Positions 963 to 61,752 of a stretch of 64,000 nt of DNA are shown here, piece after piece (the stretch's first letter is position 1; every line of letters begins with the position of its first letter). The notes below the pieces were generated by a model that ran no database searches, was not told where the DNA came from, and worked only from the letters and a program-made list of their open reading frames with translations. Source of the stretch: Odontesthes bonariensis (taxonomy: Eukaryota > Chordata > Actinopteri > Atheriniformes > Atherinopsidae). The position numbers and the translations under genes are program-made. The DNA lies in contig NC_134515.1 of NCBI RefSeq assembly GCF_027942865.1, forward strand, positions 17,940,227 to 18,004,226. Reading direction: 5' to 3'.

Positions 963-971
963 CGCATTTGA
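963..971. repeat. Left target site duplication of foldback element
   Basis: cgcatttga directly abuts the left inverted-repeat tip; an identical copy abuts the right tip at 3657-3665. This fixes the element ends to the base. Confidence 0.85.
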
Positions 972-1220
972 ACTTAGGTGAAGTTAGTTTTAAGTTGGAT
1001 ATTCGACAAACATTCGACCGACATTCGCAAGCAAGCCACTCCAACATTTCAAGTGCACCCGTATTGCACACTTTACAGTAAACACACGGAGAGGACAACT
1101 GCAGCGTGCTCCAACTTCCTGTTTTCAAAATAAAATAAAAATGAAAAAAATGTGATATTTAAAGCAGAGATGAGCGACTGTGTATAAAGTTATTGAAAAT
1201 TTTGGACAGAACTGAATTGT

Positions 1221-1690
1221 AAAAATAAAAGGTGTATCTCATGTAGCAAGTGTAGTTACATGACCCCACACTGATTTGGAGTCAATTGATCACATGACCT
1301 GGAAGCTATTGAGCAAAAATGCTAATATTTACATATAAAAATTGATAAAAAATATGAACAGATCTAAAATGTAAAAATAAAAGGCGTATCTCATACAGCC
1401 AGTGTAGTTACATGATCCTACACTGATTTGGAGTCAATTGATCACAAGACCTGGAAGCTATTGAGCAAAAAGACTAATATTTACATATACAAATTATTAA
1501 AAAATATGAACAGATCTAAAATGTAAAAATAAAAGGCGTATCTCATGCAGCCAGTGTAGTTACATGACCCCACACTGATTTGGAGTCAATTGATCACAAG
1601 ACCTGGAAGCTATTGAGCAAAAAGACTAATATTTACATATTAATAAAAAATATGAACAGATCTAAAATGTAAAAATAAAAGGTGTATCTC
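1221..1690. repeat. Left subterminal tandem array, ~152-bp unit
   Basis: Three consecutive copies start at 1221, 1373 and 1525, with a partial fourth at 1671. Each carries the blocks gtagttacatga, tcaattgatcaca, agctattgagcaaaaa and gaacagatctaaaatg. Spacings are 152, 152 and 146 bp. They belong to the left arm of the foldback transposon and have inverted counterparts on the right arm. Confidence 0.9.
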
Positions 1691-1696
1691 ATAAAT

Positions 1697-2600
1697 AGTG
1701 GCATTTATTTTTGTGGCTAAGACCCTATTGGCCACAAATGTTTTGTATCTGGAGGTTTCATTTTTGACGTACTTTAGCACTGCGGTGCTGTCAGTCCAAA
1801 AGACGGAGTCAAGCAATGTCATCTGCAGCTCCTTTCTCCACAACCTGTCTGTACGTGCTGCCACTACTGCTGCTGTTAGCTCCAGTCTGGGAATGGTAAT
1901 TGGTTTTAAGGGAGCCACCCTGGCTTTTCCCATGACGAGGATGTTGCACAGCTTTCCATCACTGTTGCGCAACAGTAGGTAAGTAGCTGTCCCATAACCA
2001 ACCTCACTTGCGTCTGCGAAATGATGTAGCTGGGCAGAAGCTACAGTGCCAAAGTCCACAGGCTTAAAACATCTGCTGATCTTAAAATCCTCAAGTAGGT
2101 GGAGTTCCTGTATCCAATTTGTCCACTCCAGCGCCATGGGCGGGGGTACGACCTCATCCCATCCAAGGCCTTTCCTACACAGCTCCTGCAAAATTAGCTT
2201 GGCTTTTAGCATCACTGGCACAAGCACTCCAAGCGGGTTGTAAATGGAACTGACCACAGACAAGATCCCTCTACGGGTCAAAGGTCGATCTTGGATTGAA
2301 ATCTTGAACCTGAATGCATCTGATTGTACACACCATTGTACACCCAGGACTCTCTCAACAGGGAGGGTGTCATGGTCCAGATCCATCTCCTTTACATCCA
2401 CTGCCCTCTCCTCTTCAGGAATTGCAGCCAACACATTTCTAATGTTACTTATCCACTTCTTTAGCTGAAAGCCACCTCTGGCGCAAATGGCTCGAAGGTT
2501 GTGATAAAGAACAATAGCCTCAGACTCCAAGGGTACTGAGGCAAGACAATCATCCACGTAGAAGCTGTGCATACTGGCATCCGCCACCTGCTGACTGAAG
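1697..2600 (-). mobile_element. Fossil BEL/Pao retroelement pol fragment
   Basis: Read on the minus strand, this segment resembles the pol polyprotein of BEL/Pao LTR retrotransposons. It begins near the reverse transcriptase YVDD motif and runs through the peptidase-A17 / RNase H-like part, with family-like wording such as SIYNPLG and IPRLELTAA. No LTRs, gag, integrase or other pol parts are present, so it is an incomplete, broken fossil. It occupies exactly the space between the inverted tandem arrays of the foldback element, so it either inserted there or was captured by it. Age is unknown; it is at least as old as the last transposition of its carrier. Confidence 0.75.
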
Positions 2601-2609
2601 GGATCATGT

Positions 2610-3400
2610 AACTACACTGGCTTTATGAGATACACCTTTTATTTTTATATTTTAGATCTGTTCATATTTTTTATTAATTTTTTTTATGTAAATATTAGCA
2701 TTTTTGCTCAATAGCTTCCAGGTCTTGTGATCAATTGACTCCAAATCATTGTGGGATCATGTAACTACACTGGCTGCATGAGATAAGCCTTTTATTTTTA
2801 CATTTTAGATCTGTTCATATTTTTTATTAATTTTTATATGTAAATATTAGTATTTTTGCTCAATAGCTTCCAGGTCTTGTGATCAATTGACTCCAAATCA
2901 TTGTAGGATCATGTAACTACACTGGCTGCATGAGATAAGCCTTTTATTTTTACATTTTAGATCTGTTCATATTTTTTATCAATTTTTATATGTAAATATT
3001 AGCATTTTTGCTCAATAGCTTCCAGGTCATGTGATCAATTGACTCCAAATCAGTGTGGGGTCATGTAACTACACTGGCTTTATGAGATACGGCTATTATT
3101 TTTACATTTTAGATCTGTTCATATTTTTTATTAATTTTTATATGTAAATATTAGCATTTTTGCTCAATAGCTTCCAGGTCTTGTGATCAATTGACTCCAA
3201 ATCATTGTGGGATCATGTAACTACACTGGCTGCATGAGATAAGCCTTTTATTTTTACATTTTAGATCTGTTCATATTTTTTATTAATTTTTATATGTAAA
3301 TATTAGCATTTTTGCTCAATAGCTTCCAGGTCTTGTGATCAATTGACTCCAAATCATTGTAGGATCATGTAACTACACTTGCTACATGAGATACACCTTT
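2610..3400. repeat. Right subterminal tandem array, ~152-bp unit
   Basis: Five full inverted copies of the left-arm unit, marked by the shared atgagata block at 2625, 2778, 2930, 3082 and 3234, with the final one at 3386 leading into the outer arm. Spacings are 152-153 bp. The array has two more units than the left arm, so copy number has changed by unequal exchange or slippage. Confidence 0.9.
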
Positions 3401-3656
3401 TATTTTTACAATTCAGTTCTGTCCAAAATTTTCAATAACTTTATACACAGTCGCTCATCTCTGCTTTAAATATCACATTTATTTCATTTTTATTTTATTT
3501 TGAAAACAGGAAGTTGGAGCACGCTGCAGTCGTCCTCTCCGTGTGTTTACTGTAAAGTGTGCAATACGGGTGCACTTGAAATGTTGGAGTGGCTTGCTTG
3601 CGAATGTCTGTCGAATGTCTGTCGAATATCCAACTTAAAACTAACTTCACCTAAGT

Positions 3657-3665
3657 CGCATTTGA
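3657..3665. repeat. Right target site duplication of foldback element
   Basis: cgcatttga, identical to 963-971. Confidence 0.85.
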
Positions 3666-4400
3666 CCATATTCTCAACGGGATATATCAGGTACGAACTC
3701 GCTTCTGAAAGAGCTAAAAGTAGCACAAAGTTTATTCCAACATTCCTGACACTACAAGGGCCCTGCATACAATAATAATAATAATCTAAGCCATATAAAG
3801 ACCATATATCCCCCGCTTTTTATTGAACAGTTTTAATTTATTTCTTTAGCTTGATATCTTTATTAATTTTATGCATGCATGTGTGTACAGTATGCTCTGT
3901 ATATACAATATACACTGCCTAGTCAAAAGTAAATACATGAATGATTGAACGTCTATATTTATTTTAAAAAACCAATACCTTGATTACTACCTCCATACAA
4001 TTTTTTCTCTTAGGATGTATTTCTCTTAAAGGTAGGGTAGGAGATCCTGGATTTTGAGTCCAGCGAAGCTGCATTTTGAAAATACACAGGTAAAAAGTCC
4101 CAACCCTTTTCTTCACTTTCCCCCCGATGGCACGCCTCTAGAGTACATGAACGCGCACGAGCACGAAGGTGCACGAGCGCTGTTCTGACAGCAAGCATCG
4201 ATCGTTGCCGTATTTAGTATTTAGTATTTAGTATATGATAACTATACGTTTTAAACTGATGGATGTGGTTTACCCTATGACAAACATTGTCAACTGGTTG
4301 ATCTTAACTGTGATCAGCCACAATAACCAACTGTGGGACCTTGTAGACAGTGTGTGGTTGTAGAAGCACCAAAAGGGCAAAAAGCCTGAATACCTAAGTG

Positions 4401-4764
4401 CAGGGGCGAGGCCAGGGTATTTTTAGTGGTGCCAAGGCACCACCATGAGATAGCTTGGCACCCCTTGGCTCAGCACATTTATTTTCTAGCATTTGTTTTT
4501 GTTTTAACTCTTTTCTCCCAAAATAAATGTTGAGTTATCTTCAATATTTGTCTCAGGCTCTCTGTTATCCCTGTCAAGCCACAGTCTTTTGAAATGAAGA
4601 GGTCAAAATTGAATGTTGGAGGGGAAAACACTACTCAAAGCAAAACTAATACGGCTCCAAAATTTATAAATGTACTAGTTCGCCTCAATTAGTGAGAAAT
4701 AATGTGCCTCTGTGAGCACTGGGGGCTGGGCACCACTAAAGACCAGATCCTAAAATCGCCCCTG
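4401..4764. mobile_element. hAT-type MITE with 8-bp target duplication
   Basis: A 364-bp element with ends caggggcga and tcgcccctg, followed inside by further imperfect inverted similarity (tagtggtgcc near the left end, its complement near the right). The exact 8-bp repeat cctaagtg lies at 4393-4400 and 4765-4772. CAGGGGyG ends with 8-bp duplications are typical of hAT elements. There is no coding capacity, so it would need a transposase supplied elsewhere. Confidence 0.85.
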
Positions 4765-4772
4765 CCTAAGTG

Positions 4773-7700
4773 TATATTCTATATTGCAGCATGTAGTTAT
4801 TCATAAATCATGATTAAACATATGCTGTTATACACACACACTCATAGATACGAGTACAGCCAGGTGTAAACGGACTGGCCAAAAAAAGCCTGATGAATCC
4901 AGGAAAACGTCGTGCCCATGCCATTAGAGGAATAAATCTGTTGATGGAAAGATCTGGTCCTTCATTATATTCAGGCCATCAGTTTACATAATTTTTTGGG
5001 CGCATAATGTTGCTGAACTTACACCTGGCCAAGTGGAGAAACAAAAACATTTCTGCGGCACAGAGAGCGCCTGATAGAAGAGGAGCCTCGATCGTTCTTC
5101 AGTGGAACAAGTCACCAACAGACCCAGTCCTACTAATTAATCACGGGCCTTGGGAAGATAGATAACCAACAAGCCAATGCACATAAATAAGATCAACGTT
5201 GCTTTGTGGAGAAAGAAGAACCTTACAGCATAACAATTATCTGTGCAGCACTCAAGATGCCATTTCTCATAGAAAGGCACATGACAGCCTTCTATGAATT
5301 TGCCCCCCCCCCCCAAAAAAAACACACCCAAATGACTCACAGACCACGAGCACCAAAATCCTCTGATCTTATGAAATATCGCTCTGTGTTCTGGGAAGAT
5401 GCTTTTTCTGTGATAGGTATTGGGAGATTATCTAGGACAGAGGGGAAGGATACAGGAACTAGAGAAAACATTTCCCAATACCTTCCTCATGATCACACCT
5501 TTTTAAAAAACAAACAAACCCTCAGGGTGCTGAACAGGTTCGACTGGTTTTATTACTTTCATGCTGCTTCCAAAAAATGGTTGGAAGCTGGCAACTATTT
5601 GATTCACACTACAACTGCCAGTTTACATATTTTTTAATGATTCGGGTTCTTAAAAAAAGTGGTCTCTCAATCTTTTAAGTAGGTGCCACAATATGAAAAC
5701 TGACTTTGTCATGAACTCACATGATAAACTAACATTTAAATGAGCAAAGTGGAGCAATGCTCCAGTGGCATGCAATGAATCGACAGTTACAGAAGAAGTA
5801 TCACCAGAGGTCACCAGTTCCAGAGTCGTTATGTGATGTTAACTATTAAGCGGACTCTGTGAAGGCAAAGGGTGCCATGTGCCACCCATTACTCCCATCA
5901 GAGTGGACTCATTCACATGCAGGCTCTCCTTGTGATTCCCTCAGCTTGGGTCTCATCCTGACCTTCGTAAGCAGGAAAAAATAGGCTGGATGTGGTTCTT
6001 TGCAGTTCTCGTCCTAACAGAGCACATCTCGAAGGAATAAAAGTGGCTTTGTTCTCCACCTTTTAGCTGTTGAGTAGGCTGCCCGGGGGGGAGGGGCTGC
6101 AGCCCACTTGTACACTCCCTTTGTAGAGGAATGCAGCTCTACAGATTGTTTGATTTTCTGCTTTAATTCGGGCAATCCAGTAATACAGAAGCAAGATAAG
6201 CATGGAATATACTCAGTTGTCCAGGAAGGCTCATTTGAGTGTTTGTAAGTGGTAGATTTGAATTCAGTGTTTCAGTGATTGAAACTTGTATGACAGCTTT
6301 TTATTTTAGACTGATTAACATGACACCGTTTTCGTTGTGTTTCTGTTTCAGGTTCACAGACCCGTTGGACTGGTTGTGCCATGAGGAAAACAAATACTTA
6401 GCATGATGTGCCGATCCAGTCATTCCATCTTTTATCAGCAGTTTCAGTTTGTATGATAAGGCAGTAATGTTTCTTGTTGTGCAGCAGAAGGTTTGCAGAG
6501 GGAAGGACAACTTAAACTCCACACTGGTACATAAGAGTCTCAGTGTCTGCGGTGTCTGAAGTTGGAATAGATTCAGCCATGACAACGATGGGTGATGGTC
6601 TTTTTTTTTCTTTTTTTTTTGCAACACATGACCACTAATCACGGGTTTGGTATGGCACACTATACCATTACTTGTCCAAATTGAATCAGTGCAATATGAC
6701 TCAGAGCAGTTGTCAAAATTTAAAATTTATGCTGTGAGTAAGGCAGGAAAAAGGTCCCCTCCAACTAGATTAGAAGATTATCAGCTCTCTTAAAACTCTG
6801 TTTTACCACTGATGGATTAAATAAACATTGTTAAATCTGATGTAACAAGGATTATTTTCCGTATTAAAAACATTTTTTTTACAACAATTTTAGTTTGATT
6901 GATATTTGTCTGATACTCTGCAGTTATTTCAAATATTCTGTTTTCACAGGATTTTCATGCTCCTCTGGTGGAGGGGGATTACTCCATTTCAGCATGATTT
7001 AATCTCTTGTTTGAGCTTTCCAACCGAGCCAGAGATTTAATCCACGGTGGGGCTGCATCTAAGGAAATGTCAGTTTTTCACAACACATGCTTTACTTGTT
7101 AAGATTAATTTAGCACATTTTTAATATCAACAAAAAATGGCTCTTAGAGTAATGATTAGTGCTAAGGGATGCACAACCACGTATGACATGTCATCTGTAG
7201 CAACTCATAAAGACCAGTCAAGGTCAGATTGTTCAAACCTCAAAGAAGGAAGCAATTAGAAATGTCAATTATTTCTTTGCGTTTTTTTTACACACAAGTT
7301 GTTGTACTTTTATGTCATATGGTAATTCTGCTGCAGGATCTCTGCAGGAGATTTGATGTTCGCTGTAACTAGGTCAGCTAAATCATCAAAAAATCCAATG
7401 TTATGCTTGCCAAATTTCAGTCATGCTGTGTATAAACAAAAGTTAATGAACAATGGCTCTGAATTCAAAGCACACATTTTCACCTGCTAATTCTGTATTT
7501 AACTAAAACGTCAAATATAAGTGGAAACAATATCATCATGCAATGCTGACATACAGTCAAGTGAAACGTAAAGGACCATATCATTATCATTATCATTTAT
7601 TCTTTTCCCCCCACATACAACTGTATATTTCTTTCTTTGTTGGTTTTCATCATTTTTTGATATGATGCTTCTCTTTTATAACCTTTGACAAAACAATGTC

Positions 7701-8370
7701 CTGCAGAAATTATTGAAGTTTTTGTCCTTCATTATTATATAGCTTCTGAATGGCTTTGAGTGCATTTGAGGAGGAAAAACGCCTTTTATCTTTACGGGGG
7801 ACTTTGGGAAAAATAAAATGCAAACTTCAAACGTCTCTCTCCCTCTCTCTGCCACATACAAAGACACACTCGCAGAAACATCTTCATATATATCTAACCA
7901 CCTGTTAAATGTGGTAGAAAGCTAAATAATTTAAAGGGTCTGCTAACCCATTAAGTTTCAGTTCATCTGTTACTGTAGGAATGAATAGTACCACATTTGA
8001 CCCCTTGTATTTAACAGTGGTTAAAAAATATTATTTTATGCTTTCAAATAAGTTCTCACAGGATGGAGCTGCATGCTAGTATCATTCAACCTATCATGAT
8101 TGTCCTTTTGACAGCTAATTATGCAGTTTCTCTGGTGACCCGCCTTTTCACAAACTAACCAGTCAGTGAAGTGGAGAGGCGGTTCAGAATGGATGACCAG
8201 CCAATCACAGTGCGCTCTCTTAATAGAGCAGTACGACCTGCAAGCACAATTTCTATGCTCGTTACAGTGTATCCTGTCGGAGATGGAGTAGCAGTGCGAA
8301 CAATTGCTGTTAAACACACAGATTAATGTACGATAAATTGTGTTTTTTTCCCCCCCAGCATTGATATTTT
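4773..8370. other. Intergenic sequence upstream of sort1
   Basis: No protein-coding exon or RNA gene was recognised. It contains short homopolymers (poly-C/poly-A near 5289-5315, poly-T near 6600-6620) and AT-rich sequence. A block around 4850-5640 looks like old repeat DNA but no family could be named. The part after about 8150 belongs to the sort1 promoter. Confidence 0.5.
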
Positions 8371-8593
8371 TTCGGGTAGGCGGCGAAACAGGAGACGCTT
8401 TGAGGACGCTTCGTGTTTTTAAAGACCGAAATAGTCGCTGTCACTGGACGACTACTGTTTTGTTGATGTCATCCGCGGCAAAGCTGTAGCGACAGTCAGT
8501 TGCCGTACAAGACAAGGATAAACAAAGACTGGTTTTGGGGTTGTGCTTTGCTCCTTTGTTGCGCTGTGTTTGTCACTTTTAGCAGCAGCGAGG
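8190..8593 (+). promoter_or_regulatory. sort1: sort1 promoter and 5' UTR region
   Basis: A CCAAT box in the strong NF-Y context agCCAATcAc lies at 8201-8205, about 390 bp before the start codon. GC content rises toward the start codon and no TATA box is evident. The transcription start is not visible from sequence alone. Confidence 0.45.
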
Positions 8594-11500
8594 ATGGGAC
8601 TTTTGCTCCACGGTATCCTGCTGCTTTCTGTGTGCACTTTCGCTGCCGGCTTAGATTTTGAGCAGGGCTCCAAACCTTTCGGACAGTCGGTTTTCCTGAG
8701 GCACTCGAACATTAAAGAGAGAGCCGCGAACATCGTGAAGAGGTCCCTGCCTGCGTGGCTGGCCGCATCACCAAATCACCAGATAAAACGAAGAAGCACC
8801 GAGCAGGGCGACTCGTGTAAAGCGCTTCAAGGATACGACACCAAGTTGCCAGACAACACCCACAGTGTAAGTTACCAACTGAGGTCCTGTTTCATGTTGC
8901 ATGTCTGTCTGACAATTAAATGAGCCCAGTGAGGAAGATGCGCAGGTGTTTACCAGGTGCACGGACAGGCCTAATCAGCTATTCAGTGTGGTGAGACACA
9001 CCGCTACTAATGGGCTGTTTTCCACTCACCTGTAAGCCTTCAAGCCTGGGTTAACAGCATACGGTACCTAAATACCTCATTGACACAAAAGATATGTGCA
9101 GTGCTTTTCACGCCACACCTTTCTCCAAGTTTAGTCATTTCATCAGTTTTGCCACCTGTGTTGTCATGATTTCGAACCTGGAGCTACGCATTTTAGTCCA
9201 GCATTTGGGTCAACTGAAGGACAAGCAGACCAGTTTCCCTCTACAAAGGTTGCTCTGGTGGTTATGACCCATATCTTTGTCTTCTCGAGCACGCAGCTGT
9301 ATTCTGTATTTAACCTTCCCACTCTCCTCCGCTTCACTGAGAGCGAAATCTGCCTGAATGTTGACAAGAAAATTGGCCCAGGGGAAACCATGTGACTGGC
9401 TGTGTGGTTCTTATTTTGTAATTAAAAGCTCTGCTTGTGCGGCTGTGGAAACGGTTAGCAAACAGGAAGTCTTGTTGGGATATACTGACGAATATGTTTG
9501 TTTGTTCTTTCTCTCCAGCACAGAAACTAACCAGGAAGAGAAAACACCCTCATTAGCAGAGCTTATGAAATATCTACTATACTCTCCACAAAATAAACAA
9601 AGAGACTTCATGCCTTTCATCAGAACCCTGTGCGGTTTATTTGCCTATCTCCTTGCTGCCTTGTGCTCGACTTTGCATTGCAGTCTTTGCACAGTTGGCC
9701 CCAGTAATCTGAGGTTGAGAGAATTCCTGGAGGCTGAGCCTAGGTTACTGCTTTAGGTCCCACCGGCACTGGAGCTGCTCATAGGACGAGCTGCTTCGAA
9801 CAGTGCGTGAGAGGAAAACTGGGCCTCTGAATGGTTTTTATAGAATTAGAATTTGTACATCAGGCAGCAGGTGCCAATGAAAGCACAAGAGTCTTCCTCA
9901 ATTATCCTTGCCAAATGTATTCCATTTGCACACAATTATAGTTTGAATTATAGTAAAATCCTTCATCTGTTGGGGTTTAGAAGTCTGCTGAGAGCTGTAA
10001 AAAGGAAATGCATTGCCAGTCCAACCAAAAATAGGCTGTCTAGAGGCAAAAAGCATAAATAGATGTTAGCTGCAGTTTATAATTGTTTGGGGCTTTGAAT
10101 GTTTGATTGTGTTTTACATGTATGACCATGATTGTCCTCTTTTCCTCAGTACACCTTCAATGATCTGAGTGGGTCAGTGTCGCTGGCCTGGGTGGGAGAT
10201 GGCACAGGGGTGAGTGTTGTACCCAATCTGACATGAGTAGGTCAAACATAGCTGGCTAATTTGGCGTTGGGTAATGAGTAATGAGTTCCCTCAGTCTCAT
10301 GCGCAATCTTAAAAGATACATGGCTGATTCTCCTCAAGCTTAACCTTCCTTCTACACAGGTCATTCTGGCCCTGACAACTTTTCAGGTGCCCTTTTTCAT
10401 GATAAGACTTGGACAGTCCAAACTTTATCGCAGGTAAGTCTCATGTGCTCAGCTTTTTTTGGCAAAGTGCATAGTTTGAATAAGATTTACATCTAATTTT
10501 GCTGCAACCGCCTGTCTGCCAGCGAGAACTACGGCAAGTCATTTCAGGATGTGACCAACTTAATCAACAACACCTTCATCAGATCAGAGTTTGGCATTGC
10601 AATTGGCCCAGAGAACTCGGGAAAGGTAAGCCATGTCCCCCTAAAGTCATCATATTCACTTCATGTGTTCATCTTGTGGTTATGCGAACATAGCAGCACT
10701 GCAACGTCTCCTGTAAAGACACTTTTGGACTCTGGCTTTCAGGTGATCCTGACAGGTGAAGTATCTGGAGGTCAGGAATCTCGGATTTTTGTCTCTGATG
10801 ACTTTGGAAAGACATTTACCCACCGGGACTTGCCTTTCAACCCCCTGAGGCAGATCACATACAATCCTGAGAACTCAAATGTGCTGACAGTCCTCAGCAA
10901 CGATGTAAGTCGTAAATCCTGAAGAAGCTCCTTTCTTTTTTTTTTAAATGTGGAGAGAAAGCGGTTAGTATTGATAAGCTAGAAAGCCCAAGTTATGCAT
11001 ATGCATATCTCAGACAACATCTATACTTTATGCAATTGGGACATTCCATCTCAAGTCACCCAGAGCATCCAATCTAAAATTTGGTAATATTTGGGGGGGG
11101 CTAAAAAGGCCTAATTATATAATAGACAAATCCTAAATATTAGAGCCATTTGGATACCAGTCATAAAGTAAAGTTTAGTTTAATAGAGCACAAAATTTTA
11201 ATAGATTTGATATATTTTGCATTCGAGAAGATGGCTCCACAATAAAACTTCAAATGTAAATGGATTGAGCAACGGTTAATAGAAAACAAGGGAACAAACT
11301 AAATGAAGAAGTATTTATTTTCAGTCTTGTAAAGTAATAAAATGTCCAGTAAAATGTTATTTTCTTGGCTAAAATACATTTATTAACAGCTGGACTACAC
11401 CTACATACATTACAACATTCACCTTTCAACTTAAAAGTAAATATTAGAGTTCTACCATCATCAGGTTAAAAAAAAACATATATACGATGGGGGGAAAACA

Positions 11501-22883: not shown

Positions 22884-24006
22884 TCAGATTCTGTACAAAA
22901 AGTTTCCCTCGGCATCAAAGAAATCATTCCCAACCTGCACCGCAGGAGAAGGTTTTACCATTTCGAGATACTCTTCAAGCTCTCCTTCTGTCAACACCTG
23001 CCCGTCCCAGACCTCTTCATCATCCTCATCCCCCTCTCTTGGAGTGCCCTTTACTGTTGATATCTGCTCTGTGACATCTTTGCTAATACCAGCTGTAAAA
23101 TTGGAGGGCAGGACAGGTGCTGGACTTTTAACTTGGGATTCTGAGCCTTTACCTCGGATCATCTGAGTCTGACCAGAAACGGGGACCAAAGCACCTTCTG
23201 ATCTCCCAAACGGGAGTGTGGCTGGTGTGCGGTTCCCAGGCAGTTTCAACTTGTCATTTGACAACCCAGCACCCAAAGGCAGCACCTTCTGACCCAGTCT
23301 AGTCATTACTGTAGCATCCTGCCTCACTTTCCTGTCTGGAGAGGGGGTGAAATTGCCTTTTAGGACTCTCAGGATAACATCAGGAGCGACGGAGAAACCC
23401 TCAGCCAGTCGCTCTACCGTCCACTCTTCTGGCTGCTCTTTCTTGAGATATCTAAAAATTACGAGAGGATTGATTTAGAGCTTTAAATGGATGGCAGCAC
23501 TTGATTGTTTGGCGACTAGACTGTCAAGAATGAACTCCTTCACCTGATTTGTTCAATAGCATCCCAGGTTAACCTCCTCTGCGGGGCTCCTGATGGAGTC
23601 ATCTGCCTCCTCAGTATGTGATACTTCACTGTCTTCTGCCTTTTTCTTCCTTCACTGTATAACATGTGGAAAGAGGTTAAAACTACCATAGAGACGGCAT
23701 AGACATAATGTTTTCATCCGATAAAGCGTCATATCTGAACTCCTGTATGGTGAGGCCCGTTGAATCTTACTCGAGCAAAGCCTGGAGCTTGTCGTCCACA
23801 TCATCTAGGTCCAGCTCATCATCAGACATCTCATCTCTGTTTCTGGGGCTGTTTGATCCTCTGTCTCCGTGCACATGGCTCTTTCCCATCCATGCTTTGT
23901 TGGTACCTCTGCTTGCGAATCGGCAGCTACTAACAGAAACTGAGGGGATAACTGGTGGGGCACGAAGCCTAAAGATGAGGGAGAAAACCTGAAGAGGTCG
24001 GGCCAT
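22884..24006 (-). CDS. ngrn: Neugrin, mitochondrial ribosome assembly factor
   Basis: Minus-strand gene of three coding exons: 24006-23771, 23654-23544 and 23451-22884, giving 304 residues (human about 291). Introns use GT/AG with matching phases. Recognition rests on the conserved core KYHILRRQM ... LTWDAIEQIRYL ... ERLAEGF ... VILRVLK and the terminal signature FFDAEGNFLYRI, almost the same as human FFDSNGNFLYRI. The N-terminus (MARPLQVFSLIFRLR) is basic and amphipathic, fitting a mitochondrial presequence. In mammals neugrin joins a pseudouridine synthase module needed for 16S mt-rRNA and the large mitoribosomal subunit, and was first described as a neurite-outgrowth gene. The start is the ATG at 24006, with A at -3 and G at +4; an in-frame TTG 12 bases upstream is not a start. 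Confidence 0.93.
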
Positions 24007-34194: not shown

Positions 34195-57750
<23,556 letters not shown>

Positions 57751-59254: not shown

Positions 59255-59789
59255 GCATGAGTTTCAGAAGAAGTGCACAAAGACTGAAGCTGACTCGTAG
59301 GAAACTTCCCAGGAGAATCTTCTCCCACTTCTAACAGAGAGATCATCACTGAAAGTAAGTACCCGCAGCTAGGAGATTTGAGATATATGCGGTCGAAAAC
59401 TTCTGAGATGTCTGTCAAATTCAGTAGTTTTAATCCTCAGCATAAACTAATCAGTTCAGCTTTAATTAAATATTTTTCAGTAGTGAGTATTAGAAGCATG
59501 TACAAAACTATTCCAGGCTTGATGTTTGAGAAATTCTTTGACACAGGAGATACAAAACTTGTAGAAATTGTGAAGTAGAGTCACTAGCATAGTTTGTAGC
59601 CAATAATTAGTTGTACCACTCAGCCAGTGTTAATTAATTATTAAGCACACAACAAATGAATGTGATGACTAGATGGATGGAGTAGACACACGTTTTCATG
59701 AGCATTACTTACTACAGTCAATTGATTTTGACTGTTTTGACTTCAAATTCCTTCACTATTAAAATGCTATGTTTTCTGGATCTGTTTAG
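59255..59789 (+). other. hsp70 5' UTR exon and 5' UTR intron
   Basis: After the TATA box a leader of about 100 bp ends at a perfect donor, gaaa|gtaagt (intron from 59355), and an acceptor tctgtttag ends at 59789, 22 bp before the start codon. A leader intron would separate the promoter from an uninterrupted coding exon. Start site is inferred from TATA spacing. Confidence 0.65.
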
Positions 59790-59811
59790 ACACTTCCAAG
59801 CAACAAGCAAG

Positions 59812-61752
59812 ATGTCCTCGGCTAAGGGAATATCCATTGGCATTGATCTTGGCACCACCTACTCTTGTGTTGGGGTTTTCCAGCATGGCAAAGTGGAAAT
59901 CATAGCCAATGATCAAGGCAACAGGACCACTCCCAGCTATGTGGCCTTTACTGACACAGAGAGGCTCATTGGAGATGCTGCTAAGAACCAAGTGGCCATG
60001 AACCCCACAAACACAATCTTTGACGCCAAACGGCTTATTGGAAGAAAGTTTAATGACCCAGTGGTCCAGTCCGACATGAAACTCTGGCCTTTTAAGGTGA
60101 TCAGTGACAACGGAAAGCCCAAAGTCCAGGTGGAGCACAAAGGTGAGACAAAGGCATTCTATCCTGAGGAGGTTTCTTCCATGGTTCTGGTTAAAATGAA
60201 GGAGATAGCTGAGGCCTACCTGGGACAGAGGGTTTCAAATGCAGTTATCACAGTCCCAGCTTATTTCAATGACTCGCAGAGACAAGCCACTAAGGATGCT
60301 GGGGTTATCTCTGGACTAAATGTTTTGAGGATCATCAACGAGCCAACTGCAGCAGCCATCGCCTATGGCCTGGACAAAGGTAAAAGAGGAGAGCGTAACA
60401 TACTCATTTTTGATCTTGGTGGAGGCACCTTTGACGTGTCGATCCTGACTATTGAGGACGGCATCTTCGAAGTGAAAGCCACTGCGGGAGACACACACCT
60501 TGGCGGGGAAGACTTCGACAACCGAATGGTCAACCATTTTGTGGAGGAATTTAAAAGAAAACACAAGAAGGACATAAGCCAGAATAAGAGAGCATTGAGG
60601 AGATTGCGTACAGCTTGTGAAAGAGCCAAGAGGACCTTGTCCTCCAGCTCTCAGGCTAGCATCGAGATTGACTCTCTGTTTGAGGGAATTGACTTTTATA
60701 CCTCAATCACAAGGGCACGTTTTGAGGAGCTCAACTCTGAGCTCTTCAGGGGAACACTGGAGCCAGTTGAGAAAGCCCTGCAAGATGCCAAGCTGGATAA
60801 GTCCAAGATCCATGAAATGGTCCTGGTTGGTGGCTCCACAAGAATTCCAAAAATCCAGAAGCTTTTACAGGACTTCTTTAATGGGAGAGATCTGAACAAG
60901 AGCATAAACCCAGATGAAGCAGTGGCTTATGGGGCAGCAGTCCAAGCTGCTATTCTGATGGGTGACACTTCAGAGAACGTCCAAGATCTCCTGCTGCTGG
61001 ACGTGGCACCCCTGTCTCTGGGTATTGAAACCGCAGGTGGTGTTATGACACCTCTTATCAAACGAAACACCACAATACCCACAAAACAGACTCAGATCTT
61101 CTCCACATACTCAGATAACCAGCCAGGAGTGCTAATTCAGGTATACGAAGGCGAGAGGGCCATGACAAAAGACAACAATCTATTAGGGAAATTTGAGCTC
61201 ACAGGTATCCCTCCTGCTCCCAGAGGTGTACCACAGGTAGAGGTAACCTTCGACATTGATGCCAATGGCATTCTAAATGTGTCTGCCATCGACAAAAGCA
61301 CTGGCAAAGAAAACAAAATCACCATCACCAATGACAAGGGCCGCCTCAGCAAAGAGGAGATAGAGAGGATGGTGCAGGATGCAGAAAAGTACAAAGTAGA
61401 GGACGGACAACAGAGAGAGAAGATTGCAGCAAAGAATGCACTGGAGTCCTACGCCTACCACATGAAGAGCAGCGTTGAGGACGAGAATTTGAAAGGAAAG
61501 ATTAGCGAAGAGGATAAAAAGATGGTCATTGAAAAGTGCAACCAGACAATCTCCTGGCTGGAGAGCAACCAGCTGGCGGAGAAGGACGAGTACGAGCACC
61601 AGCAGAGGGAACTAGAGAGGGTGTGCAAGCCAATTGTGACGAAGCTGTATCAGGGAGCGCCGCCTGCAGGAAGCTGCGGTAGCCAGGCAGGAAGCTGCGG
61701 TAGCCAGGCAGGAGGCAGCTCTCAGGGCCCCACCATTGAGGAAGTGGATTAA
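59812..61752 (+). CDS. Heat shock protein 70, inducible cytosolic type
   Basis: ATP-driven chaperone of cytosol and nucleus, 646 residues in a single coding exon. Visible signatures: [12 protein letters not shown] (11-22), [12 protein letters not shown], and [13 protein letters not shown]; the C-terminal GPTIEEVD binds TPR co-chaperones such as CHIP and Hop. The start is [12 protein letters not shown]; the longer open frame from 59698 runs through the 5' UTR intron acceptor and adds non-homologous residues. The linker before EEVD has a Gly-Ser-Cys repeat in place of the usual GGMP/GGF pattern, with an exact 21-bp duplication. Close to hspa1/hsp70 of fish and unlike constitutive hsc70, whose coding region is cut by introns and whose C-terminal region is GGMP-rich. 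Paralogue name not assigned. Confidence 0.93.
61669..61710 (+). repeat. Two 21-bp tandem repeats in hsp70 C-terminus
   Basis: Exact copies at 61669-61689 and 61690-61710 each encode GSCGSQA. They lie 10 codons before the EEVD end and add cysteines to a region normally made of Gly, Met, Pro and Phe. Confidence 0.9.

Follow-up and report, generated by a model that had tools for sequence, protein, structure and literature searches.

In plants, Pack-type capture is a main route to new gene structures. Pack-MULEs and Pack-TIRs (Tan et al. 2021, PMC8277862) are, like the family described below, inverted-repeat transposons with foreign DNA inside, short microhomology at the junctions and multiple copies after transposition; that work describes gap filling for Pack-TIRs, of which 67.6% show microhomology on at least one edge, and its survey of 100 animal genomes reports no Pack-MULE in reference genomes. 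MULEs are defined by an 8-11 bp target-site duplication together with long ends in PMC6446971, whose accessible text could not confirm them in vertebrates and asks whether they are truly absent there. To judge from the available parts of the published accounts, the closest described systems are the non-autonomous derivatives of Muta1 in Aedes aegypti (PMC5225508), the Tetris foldback of Drosophila virilis (PMC4079207) and the Tm1 Mutator/Foldback elements of Meloidogyne (PMC3169594). The Muta1 derivatives share with the present family duplications of 8-9 bp, long ends, subterminal short tandem repeats in variable number, and varied internal sequence in which gene fragments are included. Tetris likewise has long ends with a variable number of ~220-bp tandem units, duplications of 8-10 bp and a link to satellite-like arrays, while Tm1 has composite tandem-repeat ends, mostly 9-bp duplications, and one class with a putative transposase beside other classes without one.

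Several differences are nevertheless apparent from the same partial sources. The transposase of Muta1 is of Mutator type and active in yeast (PMC5225508), whereas that of the family treated here is putative, and the arrays of ~150-bp units seen here find no mention in the accessible description of Muta1. Neither coding capacity nor an autonomous copy was found for Tetris (PMC4079207), in contrast to the long transposase-like frame found here in a relative and to the retroelement cargo. The units of Tm1 are 13-15 bp long, and its other classes are histone-hairpin-motif and MITE-like rather than carriers of retroelement cargo (PMC3169594). Finally, Pack-TIRs are defined in PMC8277862 by non-TE sequence, whereas the cargo here is retrotransposon or satellite DNA.

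The window analyzed here, a stretch of 64,000 nucleotides from the fish Odontesthes bonariensis (C15:17940227-18004226 in a 945-Mb assembly, the genome also searched for relatives), contains at positions 972-3656 a DNA transposon of foldback structure, whose long arms are inverted and include arrays of 152-bp units facing each other (Table 1). The initial annotation had fixed its ends by a 9-bp duplication, and the two flanking copies are indeed perfect. The arms, described there as near-identical, agree at 95.5% in a gapped alignment (972-1692 versus 3656-2930) and at 210 of 214 positions in their outermost ~214 bp; without gaps, the inverted repeat 972-1643/2985-3656 covers 672 nt at 96% identity. 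Three array units had been given for the left arm and five for the right, which is right to the nearest whole unit (3.4 and 5.4 copies). As in Foldback (FB-like) elements, the long inverted ends are thus made of opposed tandem arrays. The outermost 152-bp unit of each arm is a divergent variant common to both ends (L1 versus R1, 148/152), being further from the inner units than from its counterpart in the other arm, and foldback relatives show from 1 to 32 unit matches per arm.

Table 1. Coordinates of the window element (positions of the window) and of two satellite-cored relatives (genome positions)
Feature	Position	Strand	Remark
Left target-site duplication CGCATTTGA	963..971	+	perfect 9-bp direct repeat directly outside inverted repeat
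Left outer terminal inverted repeat	972..1186	+	starts ACTTAGGTGAAG
Left subterminal 11-bp repeats, imperfect	~1001-1027		taken as mirror of right-side repeats
Left array, 152-bp units	1187..1692	+	about 3.3 copies; 3.4 over 1183-1693
Transposase-gene vestige	1693..1723 (31 bp)	-	codons for KKKCHYF of P0001; adjoins left array
AGAC, 4-bp microhomology	1720..1723		transposase-vestige/BEL junction
BEL/Pao pol fragment, 882 bp	1720..2601	-	RT from close to YVDD, then the Peptidase_A17 region and RNase H; frame is open
GG, 2-bp microhomology	2600..2601		BEL/right-array junction; BEL ends GAAGG, overlapping array GG
Right array, 152-bp units	2600..3442	-	about 5.5 copies; 5.4 over 2600-3422
Right outer terminal inverted repeat	3442..3656	-	
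Right subterminal 11-bp repeat CGAATGTCTGT x 2.5	3601-3627		
Right target-site duplication CGCATTTGA	3657..3665	+	perfect 9-bp direct repeat directly outside inverted repeat
Satellite-cored copy, largest, 53.9 kb end to end	C12:22224681-22278587		10 kb at each end read
Satellite-cored copy	C22:20293124-20314340		

A genome search with the outer 212 bp of the arm gave 157 first-look candidates, 40 of which were scored (all counts are lower bounds), and revealed at least 40 matching ends, which, counting the window, lie at no fewer than 26 places. For 16 two-ended copies, the 9-base flanks of the two ends were compared, a set that leaves aside C20b and C19a, eight more copies read at one end, and C1, whose outer ends are lost. 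Flanking 9-mers match at 7/9 or better in 12 of the 16 (C3 counted after a 1-base shift of the cut), with exact 9/9 flanks in the window copy, C13, C24a, C22big and C3 (cut corrected by 1 base); C23b and C23c reach 6/9 only, and two copies, C16 and C20 (3/9), have no visible 9-bp duplication. The mean match across the 16 copies was 6.8/9, versus 2.27/9 in 240 swapped left-right pairs, of which a single one reached 7 (C3 entered this control with its cut 1 base off). Similarly, mean flank identity was 0.757 at length 9, versus 0.26-0.36 at lengths 6, 7, 8, 10, 11 and 12. Target-site duplications therefore mark several independent insertions, another property of Foldback elements, and the family moves, with shared ends and differing cores. 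If instead an old retroelement had been surrounded by a local inverted duplication, with a 9-bp repeat at its flanks through chance, this would explain the inverted symmetry of the window element and nothing else; it is refuted by the occurrence of the same ends at no fewer than 26 places, with 9-bp duplications at most two-ended copies, and its probability is practically nil.

Sequence from the other 25 places was taken in part or whole for classification of the cores. One relative is a candidate autonomous copy, eight have BEL/LINE cores, twelve have satellite cores, two are short (855 and 771 bp), and two (C20b and C19a), with one end each in the stretch examined, stand outside the core classes. 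In the eight BEL/LINE copies (C16, C23a, C4, C20, C13, C23b, C3 and, in part, C4b), a remnant of the transposase occurs together with pieces of BEL and a reverse transcriptase that is LINE-like. Nine relatives hold portions of the BEL fragment seen in the window, eight of them with the LINE-like insertion, and in C23a (locus L010, about 3907-5684) a further insertion inside the LINE part holds what we take to be a hAT-like frame. In the twelve satellite-cored relatives, the shared ends enclose a core that, as far as read, is made up of 68/314-bp satellite repeats; the smallest (C24a) measures 3.2 kb end to end, the flanking 9-mers of the 53.9-kb copy match at 8/9, and 9 kb within C22big are without match to the satellite query. 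Because relatives carry other pieces or satellite DNA between shared ends, the ends move while the contents change, and the genome search with the outer arms suggested in the initial annotation brought out several copies with different cargo, a result named there as support for capture or amplification, and 9-bp duplications. The satellite-cored relatives may be a seed of satellite DNA, and they bear on how foldback ends seed such DNA.

The copy on C12 (locus L013) contains an open frame of 674 codons (protein P0001), in which LDATG (D248), ETDHSW (D321), LCSAH (C366, H369) and HVELW (E553) presumably represent a DDE triad with a C..H motif. Since this frame looks like a DDE transposase, C12 is considered a candidate autonomous copy; it also holds what we assume to be a retroelement-like frame (7918-8856) and may itself be altered. 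P0001 matched no Pfam family at E up to 5, had no relative in viral_contigs and gave only one match, at E 0.4, in a PDB search, and the AlphaFold2 model of the protein alone has a mean pLDDT of 36, too low to be of use. In the genome it has at least 69 matches, and among the matches listed ten paralogs show 44-48% identity over the greater part of the protein (at least 575 residues), in open frames of 801-1432 codons.

The element had initially been termed Pack-MULE-like. The part of this claim that concerns a mobile foldback family with 9-bp duplications and varied cargo is well founded, whereas its membership of the Mutator superfamily is unproven, because P0001 matches no Pfam family and the places matched by the MULE model PF10551 (21 in the genome, ten over the cut-off plus one with its neighbours) do not overlap any of the P0001 matches listed; no MULE-type transposase profile could thus be assigned to the family, though a 9-bp duplication, within the defined 8-11 bp, and arms of several hundred bp do fit ends of Mutator type. 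PF10551 places over the cut-off include C16:36973304-36973588, C18:7791854-7792138 and C29:30591243-30591536, with open frames of up to 579 codons, even though the existence of vertebrate MULEs is doubted in PMC6446971.

A broader and more tentative idea, to which we give less than even odds, is that the family represents a vertebrate transposon of the type 'ends with exchangeable core', with a transposase outside the known Pfam families. Its own gene may have been swapped repeatedly for mobile or satellite DNA (a BEL fragment, BEL plus LINE, satellite cores in copies of up to 54 kb), each combination founding an amplified subfamily that is recognizable by its ends alone.

The core of the window copy matches Peptidase_A17 (Pao pol, PF05380) with an E value of 7.3e-43 over model positions 1-162 of 162, as expected for a Pao-type pol, and it includes what we read from the letters as YVDD and RNase H motifs. 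The open frame at 1643-2611 on the minus strand has 323 codons, of which about 294 are BEL, and in 0 of 20000 Markov simulations of the same composition did the BEL part stay open, so that this part is regarded as real coding sequence. The initial annotation had seen a fossil BEL/Pao pol fragment in the centre; the assignment to BEL/Pao holds, but the fragment is not a decayed fossil, because about 294 codons lie in one open frame, and the first 31 bp of that centre (1693-1723) derive from the transposase gene that the element once had, the last 4 being shared with BEL. Between the arrays there is room for the RT-RNase H part and this vestige only, and LTRs and gag in one unit are not present in the window copy. 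The cargo has no relative in viral_contigs or genome_contigs and none in PDB.

A genome search with 1695-2600 yielded 70 candidates, 40 of them scored, and 41 listed matches. Apart from the window itself, C1 ranks first among the matches listed (99% over query 23-906), followed by C6 (99% over query 697-906); the eight BEL/LINE copies match over 88 bp only (93-98%), and the remaining listed matches do not exceed 83%. The window fragment differs from C1 at 13 of 884 bases (98.5% identity), with 9 nonsynonymous and 4 synonymous changes and an expected nonsynonymous share without selection of 0.74. As these 9:4 changes fit the expectation without selection, the open frame reflects youth rather than use, and the cargo evolves neutrally, probably with no function of its own. 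Selection on the cargo, which the open frame had raised, was discarded in view of this count. The same numbers bear on the proposal that a composite element uses the BEL pol frame and that the retroelement protein has been kept by selection: the single open frame of the window BEL part and the 0/20000 simulations agree with it, but the ratio of changes does not ask for selection, the longer fragment of C1 lies in two frames (though its window-matching part is confined to one), and the BEL/LINE copies are without the RT part, all of which makes this proposal very improbable.

The history of the window copy can be approached through C1 (locus L041, C1:31796200-31802200), a foldback copy that has lost both outer ends and adjoins what we take to be a frame resembling a UDP-glucuronosyltransferase exon. 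Its order is array, transposase remnant (97% to C12), BEL integrase/RNase H/RT/protease, and array, with the longer BEL fragment split over two frames, one of which includes the part matching the window. The array-to-transposase junction falls at the same base in the window, C1, C16 and C3, the copies in which the letters were compared. In the window, the transposase stretch ends and BEL begins at the same AGAC, while the gap between transposase and BEL measures 749 bp in C16 (2345-3093) and about 571 bp, by alignment, in C1. Because the window junctions lie at AGAC and GG and both C16 and C1 retain intervening sequence on the AGAC side, it is concluded that sequence on either side of the fragment was lost from the window copy. 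In C12, 2.5 kb lie upstream of the transposase frame, where the C1 fragment runs from inside the transposase 5' remnant to the right array. A tree of the ends agrees with this history: the window ends and C1 are grouped with modest support (80/79, rough values, as the bootstrap had not settled), the BEL/LINE copies cluster together (89/93), and so do the satellite-cored copies (96/94), theirs being the only one starred of these three groups, with equally rough values.

The sequences show the states from which the following order of events is inferred. The window copy, C1 and the BEL/LINE copies would share an ancestor that had already lost the greater part of its transposase gene, with the array abutting near codon 73, and ~2.5 kb of BEL/Pao inside (protease through early integrase) would have occupied its core. 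The window copy would subsequently have lost the transposase remnant and the integrase side through the 4-bp microhomology, and the protease side through the 2-bp microhomology, so that RT-RNase H is what its arrays now enclose.

With regard to the source of the fragment, a separate BEL-like copy on C3 is 99% identical to the protease part over 480 bp (C3:45218691-45219170), and at the fragment edge 58 of 58 bases are the same as in C1 (C3:45218541-45218740). Of this locus 200 bp were read at that edge; the open frame extends past it, without a break, for another 142 bases that have no match in the foldback copies compared. Because the separate copy runs in frame past the edge, the fragment is an internal piece, and the window family therefore has, like Pack-type elements, foreign DNA inside, the parent of which stands apart at another place (C3:45218541, within the 200 bp read at that edge). 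The side beyond the edge resembles a gag zinc knuckle, although the Pfam score of 14.8 bits is below the cut-off of 20.8 and covers the motif end only. No match to this gag-side DNA was found by blastn in the fetched foldback copies, and tblastn gave only short weak matches (C20b, C16 array); the outcome that would have refuted the initial annotation, with the fragment lying inside a complete retroelement in all copies, did not occur. LTR-like direct repeats were absent from the two cores examined for them, those of C1 and C16; the latter has one 79-bp duplication. When C1 and C16 are compared with C3, the fragment and the array share 1 bp at the array edge. Another BEL copy of near-identical sequence, at C6:3504958-3510648, is broken, and there is no array in the two short pieces of it that were read.

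Taken together, we consider, with a probability of roughly 70%, that the window holds a non-autonomous, internally deleted foldback copy from a family in which BEL/Pao DNA took the place of part of the family's own gene before the family spread. We prefer capture to an insertion that was followed by loss of the BEL ends. For the latter, a whole BEL/Pao retrotransposon would have been inserted by its own integrase into a foldback element, followed by a deletion on each side, three steps that would leave the same structure; further deletions did occur, since the window copy lost both fragment flanks, and other elements are nested in the family (the LINE-like reverse transcriptase of the BEL/LINE copies and the presumed hAT-like frame of C23a). 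However, the fetched copies show no gag-side DNA, no LTR-like repeat was seen in the C1 and C16 cores, and one insertion and two deletions would all have to precede the common ancestor, compared with one event for capture. Insertion thus seems unlikely, although a good deal less so than the composite element considered above. Under capture, the fragment might have been copied, with BEL as the template, while an internal break of the element was being repaired, by gap filling or template switching as proposed for Pack-TIRs. Because C13 and C20, at different sites, have an identical protease piece, the later spread is attributed to the foldback ends under capture and insertion alike, and mobilization of the copies in trans could be due to a transposase of the C12 kind that works on these ends.

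One genome holds a candidate autonomous copy, the copy C1 close to the inferred intermediate, several kinds of derivatives and a near-identical separate retroelement copy. Because all these stages sit together, it should be possible to resolve base by base how the junctions formed, in which order the events took place, and whether capture or insertion was at work. The 24-base end pattern had no exact match in viral_contigs or genome_contigs, and the left arm had none in plasmids. No such element in fish was found in the literature searched by title and abstract start, two papers on fish TEs (PMC4746887 and PMC6404401) included, which is not proof of absence from print, and 'foldback element' combined with 'zebrafish' gave no match there.

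Outside the element, the window contains three further long open frames, which we take to resemble a neugrin-like gene (22884-23474), a Tc1-like transposase (40339-40985) and an intronless HSP70 (59686-61752).
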